From a virus, in the IMG/VR virus record IMGVR_UViG_3300021959_000360, positions 1 to 25,125 of that record: a DNA stretch of 25,125 bases; one strand, 5' to 3'. Shown one piece after another: positions 1,111 to 12,426 of the stretch. Numbering within the stretch: position 1 is the stretch's first letter; every line of letters begins with the position of its first letter. The position numbers were made by a program, and so were the translations under genes. The notes beneath the pieces are model-generated. The model did no database searches, was not told the DNA's origin, and saw only the letters and a program-made list of their open reading frames with translations.

Positions 1111-1788
1111 ATGGACCCAAATGAAAAATTAACAGGAATAACACAAATGGCACCTCCGTCTATGATGGCGGGTGGAATGGGTGGTGGACAGCCTCCTATG
1201 CCTCCTATGCCTCCTAGGGGCGGCGGACAACCTCCTATGCCTGAACCAGGGGTGGGAGAAATGGCTATGCAAGGTCAAGAACCCCCTATGGAAGAACCTG
1301 CGATGAATGTAGAACAAGATTCAGCCGCATTAGCACAAGCCGTTGTAGGTAGAACACAAGGAGATATAGGTGCAGCAGTTGCTGTATTAGATAATGCAAA
1401 AGCTTTATTAATCGCTAGTACCGAACAACAAGAGCCTCAGATGATGATGCATGGTGGTGAAGTTCATTATAAGAAAATGGGTGGACCATTATACCGTGAA
1501 GGCGGTGGTGCATTAAAACCAGTTCCTGAAGATAATAAAGGTTTATCTAAGCTTCCACAAGAAGTTAGAAATAACATGGGCTTTATGAACATGGGTGGAC
1601 CTTTGTATCGTAAAGGCGGTGGTGGTATGTCTGATAGTGATGTACTAAGACAAATGATTATGGAAAATTTACAAAAACCTGCTGTTCAAGAACAAGCTAT
1701 GGCAAAAGCTATGAATCAAATGAGTCAGCCTCAACAAGTTTCTAAGGCAGACGCTATGTCCGACCTTATGAACTATAGAATGTCTTAA
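1111..1788 (+). CDS. Met/Gly/Pro-rich low-complexity phage protein
   Basis: 225 aa. ATG is preceded by AAGGAGATAATT, a good ribosome site, 2 nt after the previous stop. Residues 13-65 are rich in PPMP, GGG and MP; about 66-105 is an alanine-rich, probably helical segment (AALAQAVVGRTQGDIGAAVAVL); two copies of a MGGPLYR-E/K-GGG motif follow (about residues 123-132 and 161-170), with a methionine/glutamine-rich C-terminus. No catalytic motif is visible. Similar glycine-rich GGxxYR proteins occur beside structural genes of marine phages (from memory), so a virion role is inferred. Its TAA overlaps the stop of the convergent helicase gene. Confidence 0.75.
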   Translation: MDPNEKLTGITQMAPPSMMAGGMGGGQPPMPPMPPRGGGQPPMPEPGVGEMAMQGQEPPMEEPAMNVEQDSAALAQAVVGRTQGDIGAAVAVLDNAKALLIASTEQQEPQMMMHGGEVHYKKMGGPLYREGGGALKPVPEDNKGLSKLPQEVRNNMGFMNMGGPLYRKGGGGMSDSDVLRQMIMENLQKPAVQEQAMAKAMNQMSQPQQVSKADAMSDLMNYRMS

Positions 1789-3227
1789 CCTATCCAGTCT
1801 TTCCACTTTTCATCACCTAGCACTTCTTGTGCTAGGTCGAGTTTATTTCGTAAAGCTTTTACAATTTTTTCATCAACCGTGCCTTTAGCAACTAAATCGA
1901 TATAAGTTACTTTGTTGGTTTGCCCTATACGGTGTGCACGGTCTTCGGATTGTAAACGTTTTTCAAGGTCATAGTTATTACTATAATAAATAACAGTATT
2001 CGCTTCTGTTAGGGTAATACCATAACCACCTGTTTGAGTATTACTGATTAAATACTGTAAATCTGAAGTAGGGTCTTGAAACCTTTTAATTATTTCTTGT
2101 CGTTCTTCGTCAGGTGTTTCTCCGTAGTATGTAGCTACGCTATCTACTCCTGCTATATCATGAAGTTTCTTTAATATTCTTTTTATATCGTATTGATAGT
2201 TAGCCCATATAATAGTTTTGCCTTGTACTTCTTGTAAAACATCTACAAGTTCGTCTAACCGATTACTTTTTACTTCTACTTCTTCTCCGTTATCATGTCT
2301 AACAAAACCACATACTACTTGGTGTAGTCTCAATATTTGAGTAAGAACAGAAGTTACACTAACTATTTCATGTGAGTCCAGTTCTGCTATAGCATAATCA
2401 GTAAGTTGTTTATAGACTTTCTTTTGTTCAGGGGTTAGTTCTACTTCCCTACGCTGATACACTTTATCGGGGAGGTCTAAACATTCTTTCTTTAGCACCC
2501 TGTATGAGAACTCATTTACATTAGATGTAAGTTCTTCTAAATTTTGATAGCCGACTACTTGTCTAAAAGACCTAGTTCCCATTTTACGATTAATTAATTT
2601 AGCGTATCTGTTTTGAAACGAATAAAAAGATGTATAACCTAATAGTTGTGGGGATAGGAAAGTGCTTTGACTATATAAATCTAGGGGTGATTGGGTGACA
2701 GGGAAACCTGTAAGTATTCTTCTGTATTTAGTATTGATGGCTAGTTTTAATAAATTCTTAGTTCTTTGTGCTTTAGGGTTTTTTATAGTTGTTGATTCAT
2801 CAACCGCGATTAGTGCATTATGAGCTAAGATAAATTTTTCTACAAACGCTACACCTTTTTTGGTACTAAACGCTTCTACGTTTATTACTAATATTTTTAA
2901 ATCATGCGTAACTTCAAATAATTTAGTTAGTTCTCTTTTTTGTTTTATTGTTGGTGCTGGATTCCATACACCTATATGCTTTTCTATATGGTCTGGCATA
3001 TGAGCAGGTATTTCTTTTTCTGACCAGTTCCTATACACGCCCTTGGGGGCTATGATTATAGCACCGTTGATACCTCCTTTATCATAAAGGATAGATATAT
3101 TATCTATAAGAACTTTAGATTTACCAGTACCCATTTCCATAAAATAAGCATACTCACGCTTGTTCCATGATTTATTTAACGCCAGAAGTTGATGTTCATA
3201 CGGCTTCGTTTTAAACTTATATTTCAT
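1785..3227 (-). CDS. SNF2-like superfamily 2 DNA helicase/ATPase
   Basis: 480 aa, the only leftward gene in the window. Motifs in order: Q-like EHQLLAL (11-17), Walker A MGTGKSK (32-38), Ia region IIIAPKGVYRNW (57-68), motif II DEST (143-146) in place of DEAH/DEAD, motif III LTGFP, and motif VI SEDRAHRIGQ (427-436), typical of SNF2-family translocases. The length is that of a bare two-lobe motor without accessory domains. It is expected to remodel or unwind DNA using ATP, in replication, recombination or repair. The start is supported by AAAGG upstream on the minus strand and by a TTTAAT-N17-TATAAT promoter in the divergent intergenic region. The stop shares TTAA with the convergent rightward gene. 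Confidence 0.9.
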   Translation of the reverse strand: MKYKFKTKPYEHQLLALNKSWNKREYAYFMEMGTGKSKVLIDNISILYDKGGINGAIIIAPKGVYRNWSEKEIPAHMPDHIEKHIGVWNPAPTIKQKRELTKLFEVTHDLKILVINVEAFSTKKGVAFVEKFILAHNALIAVDESTTIKNPKAQRTKNLLKLAINTKYRRILTGFPVTQSPLDLYSQSTFLSPQLLGYTSFYSFQNRYAKLINRKMGTRSFRQVVGYQNLEELTSNVNEFSYRVLKKECLDLPDKVYQRREVELTPEQKKVYKQLTDYAIAELDSHEIVSVTSVLTQILRLHQVVCGFVRHDNGEEVEVKSNRLDELVDVLQEVQGKTIIWANYQYDIKRILKKLHDIAGVDSVATYYGETPDEERQEIIKRFQDPTSDLQYLISNTQTGGYGITLTEANTVIYYSNNYDLEKRLQSEDRAHRIGQTNKVTYIDLVAKGTVDEKIVKALRNKLDLAQEVLGDEKWKDWIG

Positions 3228-3482: not shown

Positions 3483-3511
3483 TTTACTTTGCCTTTATTC
3501 GTATATATTAT
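3483..3511 (+). promoter_or_regulatory. TTTACT-type promoter for the DNA metabolism operon
   Basis: TTTACT (3483-3488), 17-bp spacer, TATTAT (3506-3511). It is the first member of a recurring GTTTACTTT-like promoter set in this window and sits about 20 nt before the leader and ribosome site of the 3547 gene. Confidence 0.6.
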
Positions 3512-5233: not shown

Positions 5234-6757
5234 ATGTCGTTAGCAAAAGAGTTTGCTGTACGCTATGCAGGACTACGTCAAGCGTATGGAACTTTTACAG
5301 CTAACAATGAAACTAGGGAAGATGGAAAGGCAAGTGGTAAAAACATTACTATTTCTAAAGAACTATCAGATAGTGATTTATTAAAGTTATGGGAAGACCA
5401 CTTGTCTGGTCATCAAAGCGTAGGTATTGTAGCGATAGATGAACACAATAAGTGTGTCTGGGGAGCCATAGACGTTGACGAGTATCAGCTAGATTTAAAA
5501 GATTTAGCAATTAAAATAGCGAAGCAAGAATTACCATTAGTCCTTTGCCGTAGTAAAAGTGGTGGAGCACATATTTATATCTTTTTGACCGAGCCAGTAT
5601 CGGCTTCCATGCTTCAAAGAAAACTTAGACAGATTGCAGCAGCTATCGGTTATGGTCAAGTAGAGATTTTTCCTAAACAAACAAAACTATTATTAGATAG
5701 AGGAGATAGAGGCAGTACATTAAATATGCCTTACTTTGGTGGAGAAAACTCCACTAGATACGCTTATGATAAAAAAGGAGCAGCAATGACTCCTGAAGAA
5801 TTTTTAAACTATGCTAAAGAAATAGAACTAACACCCAATGAATTAGAAAAACTAGAAGCTAGTCCTTTAAATGAAACAATGGACTGGTTAGACCAAGCAC
5901 CTCCGTGTATACAACACTTAGTAGTACAAGGCTTTCCTAAAGGCTCACGTAACTCAGGACTGTTTAATGTAGGAGTTTTCCTAAGGAAGAAGTTTCCTGA
6001 TGATTGGGAACGCAGATTAGAAGATGTTAATATAAAGTTCATGCAACCTCCATTAGGTGCACAAGAAGTATTAACCGTTGCTAAACAGCTACAAAGAAAA
6101 GACTACTTTTATAAATGTAATGACCAACCTATAGCGAGCCATTGTAATAGTCCTTTATGTAGAACTCGTAAGTTTGGTATAGGTGCCAACGGTGGCACAC
6201 CTTTATTCAGTAACCTTACAAAACAGGATAGCGACCCACCTATATGGTTTTTAGATGTTGAAGGCGGTAGACTAGAGTTAGAAACAGACGACTTGTTAAA
6301 TCAAAACAGATTTCAACGTAAGTGTATGGACGCTCTTAACAAGATACCACCTAAGGTAAAAGAAAACGTCTGGAATCAGATTATACAGCAGTTATTAGAC
6401 GCTATAACAATAGTAGAGGTTCCTAAAGAAAGTTCTACAGAAGGTTATTTTATGGAACTTTTAGAAGCTTTCTGTACAGAAAGACCCGCTAGAGAACGTG
6501 ATGAACTGTTGTTGCATAAGCCATGGACTAATAACGGTAAAACATATTTTAGGCTTATGGATTTAATGGATTATTTACATAGGAATAATTTCAAAGAATA
6601 TCAAAGAAACAAGCTAACTTCTAAGTTAAAACAGCTTCATGGAGAGCCATACTTTTTTAACATTAAAGGCAAAGGTGTAAACGTTTGGTTTATAGAGGAG
6701 TTTAAAGCACAGGACGAGCCTCATGACTTGCCTGAATTTAACGATAATTTATTATGA
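5234..6757 (+). CDS. Archaeo-eukaryotic-type primase (AEP/PrimPol, TOTE-like)
   Basis: 507 aa, with TAAGGAGATATTGT before ATG. The AEP catalytic signature is visible: acidic pair in AIDVDEY (D80, D82), SGGAHIYIFL (109-118) with the conserved His, and EIFPKQ (144-149) before a basic GDRGSTLNMPYF segment. The arrangement matches primase domains known from TOTE conflict systems and many phages. A cysteine cluster (KC-x8-C-x4-C then RKFGIG, about residues 295-315) looks like a zinc site of the C-terminal primase region. A helical C-terminal domain may bind DNA or partners. It probably makes primers for the phage polymerase. Its stop overlaps the next start by ATGA. Confidence 0.88.
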   Translation: MSLAKEFAVRYAGLRQAYGTFTANNETREDGKASGKNITISKELSDSDLLKLWEDHLSGHQSVGIVAIDEHNKCVWGAIDVDEYQLDLKDLAIKIAKQELPLVLCRSKSGGAHIYIFLTEPVSASMLQRKLRQIAAAIGYGQVEIFPKQTKLLLDRGDRGSTLNMPYFGGENSTRYAYDKKGAAMTPEEFLNYAKEIELTPNELEKLEASPLNETMDWLDQAPPCIQHLVVQGFPKGSRNSGLFNVGVFLRKKFPDDWERRLEDVNIKFMQPPLGAQEVLTVAKQLQRKDYFYKCNDQPIASHCNSPLCRTRKFGIGANGGTPLFSNLTKQDSDPPIWFLDVEGGRLELETDDLLNQNRFQRKCMDALNKIPPKVKENVWNQIIQQLLDAITIVEVPKESSTEGYFMELLEAFCTERPARERDELLLHKPWTNNGKTYFRLMDLMDYLHRNNFKEYQRNKLTSKLKQLHGEPYFFNIKGKGVNVWFIEEFKAQDEPHDLPEFNDNLL

Positions 6758-7344
6758 TAGTTTATATTAAAAAACATTTTAAAAACGCTAATCCTGGAAT
6801 CGAGTACAACCAATGGGACGAGCCTAGAGAAAGAGAGTTCAATGGCTCTATGGTAAAAGGAAGAAAAACAAAAGGCTTCGGCAGTTCTTCTTTCAACTAC
6901 GCAGGAAAACTTTATGAACCAACGCCATGGACTAAAGCTATGTACGATATAAAACAACAGGCGGAAAGATTGGTATGGGAAGAACTAGAAGTAGATAAAC
7001 AGTTTACGTTTTGTCTATGTGGTTATTACGGTATCGATGGCAAAGGTATACCACACCACTCGGACACAGTACCGACACTAGACGACATAGTTGTCTCTAT
7101 ATCTTTAGGTGCACCAAGAGTATTTGTACAAAGAACATACCAGAATGAAGTAAAGAAACACACCAATACTAGTGAAATAGAAACAAAAATAGAAAACTTT
7201 GTGATAGATGAAAAACATTACATATTAGAACACGGAGACGTACTGATATTTGATGGTCGTAACCAAATGACTTCTACTCATGCTGTACCTAGTTTAGAGT
7301 CAGCAGGAGAAAGAATCAATTTAACTTTCAGGAGTGGTCTATGA
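6754..7344 (+). CDS. AlkB-like 2-oxoglutarate/Fe(II) dioxygenase
   Basis: 196 aa. The iron-binding triad is visible: H102-S103-D104 in IPHHSDTVPTL and the distal His176 in QMTSTHAVPS, followed by ERINLTFR, whose arginines match the 2-oxoglutarate-binding RxNxTxR of AlkB proteins. GDVLIFDG (161-168) is the usual strand before the distal histidine. The SFNYAGKLYEPTPWT segment fits the nucleotide-recognition lid of AlkB. Known members oxidatively remove alkyl groups from DNA or RNA. Here it lies between primase and helicase with ATGA overlaps on both sides, so a DNA role is likely. Repair is the default reading; oxidation of a modified base is an alternative. Confidence 0.88.
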   Translation: MIVYIKKHFKNANPGIEYNQWDEPREREFNGSMVKGRKTKGFGSSSFNYAGKLYEPTPWTKAMYDIKQQAERLVWEELEVDKQFTFCLCGYYGIDGKGIPHHSDTVPTLDDIVVSISLGAPRVFVQRTYQNEVKKHTNTSEIETKIENFVIDEKHYILEHGDVLIFDGRNQMTSTHAVPSLESAGERINLTFRSGL

Positions 7345-8842: not shown

Positions 8843-8882
8843 CTTTACTTTGCATATAAAAGTAAAGTATAAAAGGTATAAT
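8843..8882 (+). promoter_or_regulatory. Promoter with overlapping perfect palindrome (operator candidate)
   Basis: TTTACT (8844-8849) with TATAAA (8868-8873) at 18-bp spacing, and a second perfect TATAAT at 8877-8882. Across the -35 and spacer lies a perfect 9-bp inverted repeat, CTTTACTTT (8843-8851) and AAAGTAAAG (8859-8867), centred 16 bp apart, a spacing that suits a dimeric repressor. It drives the cluster starting at 8918. Confidence 0.6.
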
Positions 8883-8917: not shown

Positions 8918-9400
8918 ATGAACATATTTTATTTTAGTGAAGACCCTGTGACTTCTGCTAAAGCACAACCTGACAAGATGTTAGTTAAGATGCCTTTAGA
9001 GACTGCACAGATGTTATGCACCGCTCACCGCATATTAGATGGAGACGACTATGCAGATGAAGTTGGCTTATATAAAAAAGCTTACATGAACCATCCTTGT
9101 ACAATATGGGCTAGGGAGTGTAGTGGTAATTATTGGTGGCTCTACAAACATTTTTTAGCGTTAGGTAATGAATATACTTACCGCTACAAGCGTACTCATG
9201 CTAGTCTTACAAAACTAGCTGATGCTTTATACGTAATGCCTAAAAACATTACTAGAGGTCTTATGACCGATGTAGCACAGGCTATGCCTGATGAATACAA
9301 AAACGAGGACTCTACTTTGGCTTATCGTAATTACGTGATAAACGAAAAACATTACGCTAAGTGGGAGAAGGGTAGAAATAAACCAAGTTGGTGGAGGTAA
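8918..9400 (+). CDS. Conserved phage protein next to base-modification genes, function unknown
   Basis: 160 aa, start fixed by the shared leader. It has the shape MNIFYFSEDP...VKMPLETAQMLCTAHRIL, then MNHPCTIWARECSGNYWWLYKHF, and a C-terminus with QAMPDEYK...AYRNYVINEKHYAKW. I recognise this as a widespread uncharacterised phage family. In the relatives I remember, the N-terminus carries HCDKH before VKM; here it reads QPDKM, so two histidines and a cysteine seem lost (from memory, to be checked). The many conserved H, N, W and R residues look enzymatic. It is the first gene of the unit leading to a methyltransferase, an HMUDK_hel-type protein and a ThyA homologue, so a part in thymine modification is possible but unproven. 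Confidence 0.8.
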   Translation: MNIFYFSEDPVTSAKAQPDKMLVKMPLETAQMLCTAHRILDGDDYADEVGLYKKAYMNHPCTIWARECSGNYWWLYKHFLALGNEYTYRYKRTHASLTKLADALYVMPKNITRGLMTDVAQAMPDEYKNEDSTLAYRNYVINEKHYAKWEKGRNKPSWWR

Positions 9401-9406
9401 AATAAA

Positions 9407-10249
9407 ATGTCATCAATAAGAAAGAAACTACTCGTCAATGAAAACGATAGTAAAAACACAAGAATGGATATTGCTAGTGCGGGTGTACTGGCTAACTGGC
9501 GACCTGATGAGATAGCTCATATGAGCCGTTTCGATAATATAGCTTCTATGTGTATAGAAGAAGCTAAACGATTAGGCAGACCCTTAGATACGTTTGAAGT
9601 AGGTTGTGGAGAGTGTTGGACTCTTAGAAACTTATATAAAGCTTATGTTATTAAAAAGTCTGATGTAATTAAATCATATTATGGCTACGATATAGACCCT
9701 ATGTGCGAGTTAGAAAATCCTTTTTGGTCTAACGCGGGTAATCCGTTAAAAGACTCTACATGGTTTCAAAACTTTAACGGAGAGATAAGAATACAAGACT
9801 TAACAGTAGACCCTGTATTTAAGCTAGAGGATGAAAGTATTGATTTTTTCTGGACTACCGAAGTTATTGAACATATGGGTAGAGAGTTTATCCCTGCATG
9901 GCTAGACGATGCGGCTAGGGTTATGCGACCAAATGCATTAGCTTTTGTCTCTACGCCTAACCACGACGGTTCTAACGACAAGCTTCCTGAAGACCACGTA
10001 TACGAGTGGGGTTTCCAAGAACTAAAAGAAGAATTAGAAAGGAACTTCGAAATACTAGACGTAACAGGAACGTTTATACAACTACCTAACTTAAAGAAAG
10101 CTATGAAAGAAGATTCTAAAACAGGTTGGACTCCTGAACAATATAAGCAACTACAAAGCAGATATGGTAGACAGTTCTTAAGAGTTGTTGCAGCAACATT
10201 CTATCCTGAAGTTGCGAATAACTGTTCTTGGGTGTTAAGGAAGAAGTAA
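9407..10249 (+). CDS. Class I SAM-dependent methyltransferase
   Basis: 280 aa, with GGAGG about 10 nt before ATG. Motif I is FEVGCGECWTL (63-73); GYDID (93-97) fits the ribose-binding acidic motif II; FFWTTEVIEHMG (147-158) fits the motif IV/post-II region of methyltransferase-11-type folds; VMRPNALAFVSTPN follows as in small-molecule and quinone-type methyltransferases. There is no DPPY/NPPY adenine or PC cytosine DNA-methylase motif, so it is not a standard N6-A or C5 DNA methyltransferase. Lying between the 160-aa protein and the HMUDK_hel-type gene, it might methylate a modified base or a precursor; the substrate is unknown. TAATG overlap with the next gene. Confidence 0.85.
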   Translation: MSSIRKKLLVNENDSKNTRMDIASAGVLANWRPDEIAHMSRFDNIASMCIEEAKRLGRPLDTFEVGCGECWTLRNLYKAYVIKKSDVIKSYYGYDIDPMCELENPFWSNAGNPLKDSTWFQNFNGEIRIQDLTVDPVFKLEDESIDFFWTTEVIEHMGREFIPAWLDDAARVMRPNALAFVSTPNHDGSNDKLPEDHVYEWGFQELKEELERNFEILDVTGTFIQLPNLKKAMKEDSKTGWTPEQYKQLQSRYGRQFLRVVAATFYPEVANNCSWVLRKK

Positions 10250-11184
10250 TGACTGAGTTTCTTGCAGAAGAACTAGACCGTTTTTGCTATTGGCAAACTG
10301 AACGTGAAAGTATTAGGGTCAAAAAAGAGGAGTATAAACTCCCTTCCCCCTGGACTGATGACCCTATTCTGCAAGAGTTTAAATTCTGCCAAGTTTTTCG
10401 AGAAGATGATAGAACAACTAGATGGTTTAGAGCACACATAAGAGAGCCTTTAGCCAATAGTTCTGATGTTATTATGGCTACGATTATTTTTCGTTGGTTT
10501 AATTTTATACCGACAGGTAGAACGTTAGTAGAGAATGATTTACATAGAAACTGGGAGGGTGATAAAGCTATACAGCTTATACGAAAACAACCTAAGTGGG
10601 TGACAGGCTCTTATATTATTAAAACGCCAAACGGTATGGATAAAGTAACAGGGGTAGTCGATTGTATTAATAATATCTGGAAAGATAAGGATTGGATAAC
10701 TAAACGTTTAGAGTACGATAAAAAAGAAGGAACAAGTTCTTTAAAGTCTGCATGGACATTACTTAGGCAATATCCTTATATGGGTCCATTTATGGCGTAC
10801 GAGGTTGTTACTGATTTAAGGCACACTTATATATTAGATGAAGCCGAAGATATTATGACATGGGCTAATGCAGGTCCAGGAGCCATGAGAGGACTAAATA
10901 GATTAACAGGCAGACCGCTTGATTTTTCACATCGTAGCCACGACTGGAATACAGAAATGCAAGAATTATATCAAATAGTTATACGCAGATTACCTGCACA
11001 TATTGCAATGCGTAATGATAGAGTATATGAACTACGTGATATCGAAGGAGGACTTTGTGAGTTCGATAAATATTCAAGGATATTTAAAAACGAAGGAAGA
11101 ACAAGGTCTATATATAAAAGTAATAATCTTCCTGAAGTAGAAGATTTAATAGAAGGAGAAAGTAAGTATGGGAAAAGTGAATGA
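10249..11184 (+). CDS. HMUDK_hel / aGPT-Pplase2-family protein (thymine hypermodification)
   Basis: 311 aa from ATG 10249, which has AAGGAAG upstream and overlaps the previous stop as TAATG; a TTG seven codons earlier is less likely. Features match the helical family first called alpha-glutamyl/putrescinyl-thymine pyrophosphorylase clade 2, later named the 5-hmdU DNA kinase helical domain: FCQVFREDDRTT (46-57), FRWFNFIPTG, YMGPFMAYEVVTDLR (177-191) and WANAGPGAMRGLNRL (205-219). No P-loop is present, so this is the stand-alone helical protein, not a fused kinase. In known phages the family accompanies conversion of 5-hydroxymethyl-dU in DNA to hypermodified thymines. A ThyA-like dUMP enzyme lies two genes downstream, strengthening the assignment. 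Confidence 0.8.
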   Translation: MTEFLAEELDRFCYWQTERESIRVKKEEYKLPSPWTDDPILQEFKFCQVFREDDRTTRWFRAHIREPLANSSDVIMATIIFRWFNFIPTGRTLVENDLHRNWEGDKAIQLIRKQPKWVTGSYIIKTPNGMDKVTGVVDCINNIWKDKDWITKRLEYDKKEGTSSLKSAWTLLRQYPYMGPFMAYEVVTDLRHTYILDEAEDIMTWANAGPGAMRGLNRLTGRPLDFSHRSHDWNTEMQELYQIVIRRLPAHIAMRNDRVYELRDIEGGLCEFDKYSRIFKNEGRTRSIYKSNNLPEVEDLIEGESKYGKSE

Positions 11185-11389
11185 ATATTCTCTAGACCTT
11201 TTAGAGAACTACGGAGAAGATGTTGACTGTTATTACACACAGTTTTTAGAAGTAGCTTTCTTTTTAAAAGTTGCCGCTAGTAATGAAATGGCGATAGCGT
11301 TTATAAAAAGAAAATTACCTGTCTTAAACGAAAGCGAAATAAGTTTTCTTATAGGTGAACTAGTAGAAGCACACCAGGAAACATTATGA
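11168..11389 (+). CDS. Small protein of unknown function between modification genes
   Basis: 73 aa, with GAAGGAGAAAG before ATG; the start lies 17 nt inside the upstream gene and the stop overlaps the ThyA-like start (ATGA), so it is tightly coupled to both. The sequence is mostly helical with a hydrophobic stretch (QFLEVAFFLKVAASNEMAIAF) too interrupted by charges for a clear membrane span. No motif recognised. Its position suggests an accessory of the neighbouring modification enzymes. Confidence 0.7.
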   Translation: MGKVNEYSLDLLENYGEDVDCYYTQFLEVAFFLKVAASNEMAIAFIKRKLPVLNESEISFLIGELVEAHQETL

Positions 11390-12426
11390 AAGTAATTAGA
11401 GCAAGAAATGTAAACGACGCTCTACTTTTAGGTATTGATTTGTTTAATGACGATACCTCTTATAGGGTGCAAGAAAGCCGCAATGGTACGACCTACGAAG
11501 CGTTAGAACCAGTAACAACTGTTTATAGTAATCCCTGTGAAAGAGTATGTTTACTAAAAGCAAGAGACGCTAATCCATTCTTTCATTATATAGAAAGTTT
11601 ATGGATGTTAGCAGGACGTAAAGATTTAAAACCTTTGACCTATTTTGTTAAATCTATGGAAGATTTTTCAGATGACGGAGAAACTTTATGGGGTGCCTAT
11701 GGTTGGAGATGGAAAAGTTATTTTCATAAAGACCAAATAGATATTGTCTATAGAATGTTAAAAGAAAATCCTGAAGATAGAAGGGCAGTATTACAGATGT
11801 GGGATGCGAACAAAGACCTTAATAGAAACGGTAAAGACGTACCTTGTAATACGAACATCTATTTTAAGATTAGAGAAGATAAGTTAAATATGACTGTTTG
11901 TAATAGGTCTAATGATATGTTGTGGGGTGCTTATGGTGCTAACGTAGTTCATATGTCAGTATTACAAGAATATCTTGCTGCTCTACTCGGTGTCGAGGTC
12001 GGAACATATAGGCAAGTTAGTGATAGCTTTCATGTGTATCTAAATCCTGTTTGGGATAAAGTAAAAGATATCGAAATAGATGTCTACACTTATAAAGACA
12101 TAATGAATCCTTACGATACATTTTCATCGGCATATGAACACGCTCCTTTGTTTACTAGTCCTGACACTTTAGATTGGGAATTAGATAGGTTTTTCAACAT
12201 ACACTACACTGACCTAGATATGAACGGTTGGGTAAATCCAGCACTCAAAGATATTGCTGTTCCTATGACGTTAGCGTTTAATTCATATAAAGACGGAGAT
12301 TTTAAATTAGCGTATGAACATATAGAAAATATAAAAGCCATTGATTGGAAAACGGCTTGTCTCGGTTGGGTCCGCAAAAGAGACAAGACTATTATTAATA
12401 ACGCGGACGAAGGAGAAAACTTATGA
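11386..12426 (+). CDS. ThyA-family dUMP C5-modifying enzyme (thymidylate synthase or dUMP hydroxymethylase)
   Basis: 346 aa. ThyA landmarks: HYIESLWMLAG with Glu70, RR in DRRAVLQMWD (131-140), catalytic Cys154 in DVPCNTNIYF, phosphate-binding RSND (174-177), Asn186 in GAYGANVV, and FHVYL (215-219) matching the His/Tyr nucleotide site. The Asn equivalent to E. coli Asn177 points to dUMP rather than dCMP, since dCMP hydroxymethylases have Asp there. The LWGAYGAN version is the phage branch that includes both synthases and hydroxymethylases, and sequence alone does not separate them. The HMUDK_hel-type gene nearby favours dUMP hydroxymethylase, making 5-hydroxymethyl-dUMP. ATGA overlaps bind it to both neighbours. 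Confidence 0.85.
   Translation: MKVIRARNVNDALLLGIDLFNDDTSYRVQESRNGTTYEALEPVTTVYSNPCERVCLLKARDANPFFHYIESLWMLAGRKDLKPLTYFVKSMEDFSDDGETLWGAYGWRWKSYFHKDQIDIVYRMLKENPEDRRAVLQMWDANKDLNRNGKDVPCNTNIYFKIREDKLNMTVCNRSNDMLWGAYGANVVHMSVLQEYLAALLGVEVGTYRQVSDSFHVYLNPVWDKVKDIEIDVYTYKDIMNPYDTFSSAYEHAPLFTSPDTLDWELDRFFNIHYTDLDMNGWVNPALKDIAVPMTLAFNSYKDGDFKLAYEHIENIKAIDWKTACLGWVRKRDKTIINNADEGENL

Follow-up and report, generated by a model that had tools for sequence, protein, structure and literature searches.

A cassette of three genes, encoding a class I S-adenosylmethionine (SAM)-dependent methyltransferase (MTase), an HMUDK_hel protein without a kinase domain and a ThyA-fold protein, forms an invariant unit in the IMG/VR virus record IMGVR_UViG_3300021959_000360 (25,125 bases, from here on referred to as the window) and its relatives. 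Neither the P-loop 5-hydroxymethyl-deoxyuridine (5-hmdU) kinase (PF18748) nor the amino-acid:DNA transferase (PF18724) was detected in any of 47 pelagiphage-group records, with all three controls positive in both searches. We see about an even chance that this cassette makes a modified thymine, with 5-hmdU being presented by HMUDK_hel and methylated by the MTase in place of the kinase.

A three-gene core without kinase or amino-acid transferase

The window was compared with 80 viral contigs encoding an HMUDK_hel relative of 60-100% identity. The MTase gene lies directly upstream of HMUDK_hel in 79 of the 80 relatives and the ThyA-fold gene directly or almost directly downstream, likewise in 79, the exception in each case being a contig that ends there. 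The end of the MTase gene overlaps the start of HMUDK_hel by 1-4 nt in 64 of the 74 relatives in which this could be measured and, in about 10 relatives, HMUDK_hel and ThyA-fold genes overlap directly; no MTase-HMUDK_hel fusion was seen. Based on dN/dS values of 0.03-0.24 for each flagged gene, all of them are real and under purifying selection. The genes of the window locus, core members first, are:

9407 to 10249, plus strand: class I SAM-dependent MTase, core (PF13489, Methyltransf_23, E=2e-8; PF08241)
10249 to 11184, plus strand: HMUDK_hel protein without kinase domain, core (PF18723, E=1e-40)
11386 to 12426, plus strand: ThyA-fold protein, predicted dUMP 5-hydroxymethylase, core (PF00303, E=8.5e-23; phrog_5131)
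8918 to 9400, plus strand: 160-aa PF03013/phrog_624 protein (Pfam E=2.5e-8, PHROG E=4e-56)
11168 to 11389, plus strand: 73-aa orphan protein, dispensable (no significant Pfam or PHROG family)

The original prediction, made from the letters of the window, had placed these five open reading frames correctly and described them as one set linked by overlaps. The linkage holds for four of them, with overlaps of 1 nt (MTase/HMUDK_hel), 17 nt (HMUDK_hel/73-aa gene) and 4 nt (73-aa gene/ThyA-fold gene) and a further 4 nt between the ThyA-fold gene and the next gene, but not for the 160-aa gene, which is separated from the MTase gene by a 6-nt gap. Membership of the 160-aa and 73-aa genes in the set was not upheld, as they are present in only 47 and 49 of the 80 relatives, respectively. 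In some relatives the 160-aa gene is found at another genome position, and proteins of the PF03013/phrog_624 kind occur widely among marine phages, with 608 phage records. The invariant core consists of the MTase, HMUDK_hel and ThyA-fold genes; the 160-aa gene is a passenger between promoter and cassette and, like the 73-aa gene, stands outside the core.

The ThyA-fold protein contains equivalents of C146, R166, S167, D169, N177, H207 and Y209 (E. coli numbering). The PF00303 match and the Asn at the dUMP-selecting position 177 agree with its earlier description as a ThyA-family enzyme specific for dUMP. A gap is found at the position of synthase Trp80, a residue required for hydride transfer in thymidylate synthase. 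The best PDB match is a CMP 5-hydroxymethylase (E=1e-20) compared with E=1e-12 for the best thymidylate synthase, a closer match than to any true synthase, and the protein scores under every NCBIfam synthase cut-off. Over its length, it is 45% identical to enzymes of M6-type phages, whose DNA contains 5-hmdU-derived bases (PMC6449724; PMC11946847). Homology and active-site residues make a dUMP hydroxymethylase the best reading of this predicted enzyme.

The HMUDK_hel protein matches PF18723 with 140 bits against a curated cut-off of 25 (residues 9-282), in line with its previous assignment, and keeps all family-invariant residues (R19, R51, D54, GPG209-211 and CE..KY270-275). PF18723-type proteins are named aGPT-Pplase1 in other, older records. 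The best PDB fold match of its AlphaFold2 (AF2) model (pLDDT 88.8), a statistically weak one (E=0.7), is a Pseudomonas phage 5-phosphomethyl-dU glycinyltransferase, with helix-hairpin-helix (HhH) DNA glycosylases among the next matches. The modelled fold is compatible with, but does not prove, handling of 5-hmdU DNA.

The Methyltransf_23 match likewise agrees with the class I methyltransferase originally proposed. Its SAM-binding motif is intact (EVGCGE, YGYDIDP) and its AF2 model (pLDDT 85) matches Rossmann methyltransferases. Out of 50,697 phage records, the MTase matches only five, representing four phages: AXL3 (twice), PW916, ct3Et533 and ctUtU524. It aligns with AXL3-type MTases (AXL3_31-like) over almost the whole length (hhalign 99.4%, E=5e-22, 232 columns), and the PW916 protein matches as the AXL3 protein does. 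In AXL3, ctUtU524 and ct3Et533, the MTase is encoded beside a ThyA-fold pyrimidine hydroxymethylase, a MazG-like pyrophosphohydrolase and a dCMP deaminase, with a dNMP-kinase-like protein nearby in two of the three. The two hydroxymethylases that were aligned, those of AXL3 and ct3Et533, contain Asp177 and are thus of the dCMP type. DNA of Stenotrophomonas phage AXL3 resisted 35 of 37 restriction enzymes, the two cutters having A/T-only sites (PMC7504290). By homology and adjacency to a pyrimidine hydroxymethylase, the window MTase is assigned to this hydroxymethylase-associated family (AXL3_31-like). The 5-hydroxymethyl group is taken as the likely target of the MTase, as it is what dUMP- and dCMP-type hydroxymethylase neighbours of one MTase family share.

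Because PF18748 misses some kinases, the kinase search was repeated with a 13-sequence profile. This profile did not detect a kinase in 25 MTase-type, 11 TET-associated glycosyltransferase (TAGT)-type or 3 FkbM-type records and was positive in seven of seven other records, including all six known kinase-type ones. The cassette genes are also found at 100% identity in the 61,952-base contig IMGVR_UViG_3300021960_000001 (G002), which, based on a 127-base direct terminal repeat, is taken as a complete circularised genome of practically the same phage. In this genome and four other long records, a relaxed Walker A scan returned only helicases or chance motifs, three-sequence and subsequently broad iterated kinase profiles found no kinase, and profile searches found no amino-acid transferase. 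The best motif match, GSSLSGKS (G002, 46021-46593), was rejected as a hidden-kinase candidate; it lies inside the over-extended start of a lysozyme. The lack of a P-loop kinase first noted for the window now extends to 47 records, the complete genome included. The suggested link to alpha-glutamyl or putrescinyl thymines is unsupported, because PF18724, which does that chemistry, is absent from all 47.

Partner exchange and relation to known systems

In a wider scan of HMUDK_hel loci, counted after removal of near-copies, HMUDK_hel-ThyA loci could be grouped by neighbour: 31 encode a kinase with or without an amino-acid transferase and 39 a pelagiphage-type MTase, while about 14 HMUDK_hel loci have a TAGT (PF20691) and 4 an FkbM methyltransferase with a GT4-type glycosyltransferase. 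A further 20, mostly distant chromosomal homologues, have none of these four neighbour kinds. No locus in the scan combines a kinase with a pelagiphage-type MTase, and the TAGT- and FkbM-type records also lack a kinase. In the HMUDK_hel tree, the MTase class groups in a single clade. Kinase and glycosyltransferase classes are intermingled, and well-supported branches force at least four changes of glycosyltransferase label. The approximately unbiased (AU) test rejects MTase and FkbM classes as a single clade, but the FkbM label here includes a distant mixed locus (L273), which makes this outcome uninformative. Where the kinase is present, it is either part of the same polypeptide as HMUDK_hel (Bacillus phage Goe26), encoded just upstream (RHph_I72 and Koji) or located directly 5' of HMUDK_hel with the amino-acid:DNA transferase farther upstream (MP1412, which is M6-like, PaMx11 and Sonora). 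Such a pattern would be expected from an HMUDK_hel that deals with 5-hmdU in DNA while its partner sets the group.

Additional components were seen at some of these loci. Six marine phages (L207, L208, L211, L213, L214 and L215) encode, after HMUDK_hel, an FkbM MTase (PF05050), a homologue of the 118-aa protein of the window, a GT4-like glycosyltransferase and a ThyA-fold protein. HMUDK_hel, mostly with ThyA, is found with PF20691 and no kinase in L199, L204, L205, L209, L212, L216, L226, L230, L237, L238, L262 and L265; several of these loci also encode a protein that clusters with a weak uracil-DNA glycosylase (UDG)-superfamily match (PF03167), and some have a radical SAM protein. Two HMUDK_hel paralogues lie a few kilobases apart on the single phage contig L212. 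Distant HMUDK_hel homologues (L290-L306), mostly without a ThyA-fold neighbour, are found on contigs mostly of Patescibacteria-type bacteria.

The cassette resembles the M6/PaMx11/ViI type of Mesyanzhinovviridae and Ackermannviridae in gene order, with HMUDK_hel preceding the gene of a (predicted) ThyA-fold hydroxymethylase and both located upstream of PolA, M6/PaMx11-type proteins being 35-45% identical to those of the cassette. It differs in lacking the PF18748 kinase and PF18724, in having a methyltransferase in the kinase position and in that no pyridoxal phosphate (PLP), radical SAM or flavin tailoring enzymes were found beside it. With the AXL3 type, it shares a homologous methyltransferase adjoining a predicted ThyA-fold pyrimidine hydroxymethylase; AXL3-type systems, however, have Asp177 (dCMP type), nucleotide-pool enzymes, no HMUDK_hel and resistance on G/C-containing sites. 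TAGT- and FkbM-type metagenomic phages also combine HMUDK_hel, a ThyA-fold enzyme and a non-kinase group transferase, but there the neighbour is a glycosyltransferase or a different methyltransferase family. The methyltransferase had originally been viewed as an addition to the known set; its presence is confirmed, but this comparison suggests that it takes the place of the kinase beside HMUDK_hel.

The DNA polymerase (PolA) of the window is closest to that of phage 023Pt_psg01 (53%), followed by Pelagibacter phage HTVC023P (50%), which places the window phage among or close to the SAR11 phages of the HTVC023P type. In pelagiphages of this type from clades V, VIII and IX, Wittmers et al. 2022 (PMC9599517) described a thymidylate synthase with aG/PT-PPlase1 and inferred hypermodification of the M6 kind; their main text never uses the word methyltransferase and, as far as we could see, makes no mention of the missing kinase and amino-acid transferase. 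Given the PolA relationship and the naming of PF18723-type proteins, the HMUDK_hel and ThyA genes of the cassette are, judged from that text, almost certainly identical with the pair described there, and the phage group is the same. What the present comparison adds is the MTase as a third, invariant gene, the lack of both kinase and amino-acid transferase, the connection with the hydroxymethylase operons of AXL3-type phages and the exchange of partners.

Proposed modification route and alternatives

From the observed gene content and its invariance, from the lack of both kinase and amino-acid transferase and from the exchange of partners, we infer a substrate, a chemistry, a complex and a benefit as follows. 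Based on its homology and active-site residues, the ThyA-fold enzyme would convert dUMP to 5-hydroxymethyl-dUMP, which host kinases would carry to the triphosphate, and the phage polymerase would incorporate 5-hmdU. HMUDK_hel may then recognise and present 5-hmdU in replicated DNA, as suggested by domain fusion, gene neighbourhood and fold; this is also what it is assumed to do next to the kinase of M6/PaMx11/SP10-type phages. With HMUDK_hel as DNA-handling subunit, the MTase would methylate the hydroxymethyl oxygen to give 5-methoxymethyl-deoxyuridine. Such a base would be a dead end for amino-acid chemistry, making further enzymes unnecessary, and could hide the DNA from restriction enzymes. 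The basic idea of a thymine-modification cassette starting from 5-hmdU, put forward in the original prediction, gains support from the PF18723 match and the hydroxymethylase-like ThyA-fold protein, and a new base stands as a possibility. We know of no description of 5-methoxymethyl-deoxyuridine from nature, and a literature search combining methoxymethyl, hydroxymethyluracil and bacteriophage found no paper.

More tentatively, and short of an even chance, we hypothesize that HMUDK_hel is a general 5-hmdU-presenting subunit with exchangeable partners (kinase, methyltransferase or glycosyltransferase), the pelagiphage partner being an O-methyltransferase that yields 5-methoxymethyl-deoxyuridine in DNA. 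If this is true, 5-hmdU would be a common anchor that phages cap variously through a one-gene swap, and ocean phages of a widespread group would contain a base unseen by routine sequencing. It would also suggest a role for HMUDK_hel and a first function for an MTase family found beside pyrimidine hydroxymethylases in unrelated phages. Liquid chromatography-mass spectrometry (LC-MS) of pelagiphage DNA would be predicted to reveal 5-hmdU with an extra 14 Da, and the same reasoning predicts an equal mass shift of 5-hmdC in AXL3 DNA.

Several observations weigh against methylation of HMUDK_hel-presented 5-hmdU. Among the fold neighbours of the MTase, small-molecule methyltransferases predominate, and AXL3-type phages have the MTase without HMUDK_hel, so that HMUDK_hel need not be its partner. 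Evolutionary distances of the MTase track those of HMUDK_hel (r=0.70) less closely than those of unrelated replication genes (0.84); HMUDK_hel distances track ThyA best (0.87). This co-evolution test gave no preference to the MTase-HMUDK_hel pair. In addition, HMUDK_hel resembles DNA-base enzymes only weakly in fold, as given above, its profile comparison with the amino-acid transferase was not significant, and we found no methyl-transfer assay on 5-hmdU for the cassette enzymes or close relatives.

In one alternative explanation, which we regard as unlikely, the MTase acts on nucleotides (5-hm-dUMP or the triphosphate) before replication and HMUDK_hel has a separate role, for example protecting or processing 5-hmdU DNA. 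Nucleotide-level methylation is conceivable because AXL3-type MTases occur without HMUDK_hel, being located among nucleotide-pool enzymes in AXL3, ctUtU524 and ct3Et533, and the small-molecule fold neighbours point in the same direction. However, the pelagiphage MTase has no such pool enzymes beside it and is instead overlapped directly by an invariant HMUDK_hel, a protein elsewhere paired with 5-hmdU DNA kinase, which is a DNA-acting enzyme. It is quite unlikely that the MTase-fold enzyme adds another SAM-derived group to 5-hmdU, such as aminocarboxypropyl, carboxymethyl or aminopropyl, resulting in a bulkier base. Neither fold nor sequence fixes the group transferred by an enzyme with an intact SAM motif, and a larger group would fit the resistance of AXL3 DNA (35/37 enzymes), which equals glucosylated T4 DNA in breadth (94.3%; PMC7653180), but the best family matches of the MTase are plain methyltransferases.

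A route still relying on phosphorylation by a host or unrecognised kinase, leading to phospho- or amino-acid-linked thymines that the MTase merely decorates, would fit an HMUDK_hel that keeps all family-invariant residues and has relatives belonging to the kinase route. We consider it very unlikely, given that PF18748, the broad profile and the Walker A scan detected no kinase in genomes that are complete or nearly so, and that PF18724 is absent. Least probable is an ordinary thymidylate synthase accompanied by leftover genes, with only canonical T in the DNA. Pfam, PHROG and NCBIfam models do name the ThyA-fold protein thymidylate synthase, but the missing Trp80, the hydroxymethylase as best PDB match and the scores below all NCBIfam synthase cut-offs argue otherwise, as does the fact that all three core genes are under purifying selection and kept together in 79/80 relatives.

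Promoter-like element and neighbouring genes

Upstream of the 160-aa gene, the window contains one further feature:

8843 to 8881, plus strand: promoter-like element with palindrome CTTTACTTT-n7-AAAGTAAAG (inverted repeat at 8843-8867)

The palindrome, initially described as an operator, was borne out as a real inverted repeat. The element consists of a -35-like TTTACT (8844-8849), an 18-nt spacer and a -10-like TATAAA (8868-8873); a consensus promoter scan did not list it. The motif TTTACTTT is found at most 800 nt upstream of the MTase gene in 73 of 74 relatives, compared with about one expected after shuffling, and lies directly 5' of the MTase gene in those lacking the 160-aa gene. The window element carries CTTTACTTTGCA, and its second arm, AAAGTAAAG, is kept in most, but not all, relatives inspected. 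Copies of (C/G)TTTACTTT(G/C), mostly followed by an A/T-rich -10-like stretch, are located in or near intergenic stretches 5' of genes at window positions 3483, 8844, 15495, 16334, 17689 and 18594. Since it also precedes several other window genes, TTTACTTT probably serves as a promoter motif throughout the phage; what is special to the cassette element is the palindrome.

Other genes of the window include an AlkB-like 2-oxoglutarate (2OG)-Fe(II) oxygenase gene (6754-7344) upstream of a UvrD helicase gene; the oxygenase gene diverges faster than its neighbours and has another genome position in some relatives. An AEP-TOTE family primase (PF22548, 5234-6757) and a SNF2-type helicase on the opposite strand (1785-3227, minus) are conserved across the phage group. 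Further, G002 encodes curli-secretion (type VIII secretion system, T8SS) genes at 48603-52938 (locus L087), whose products are CsgG, a FecR-domain protein and a CHASE2-adenylate/guanylate cyclase; such genes have been reported from HTVC023P-type pelagiphages.

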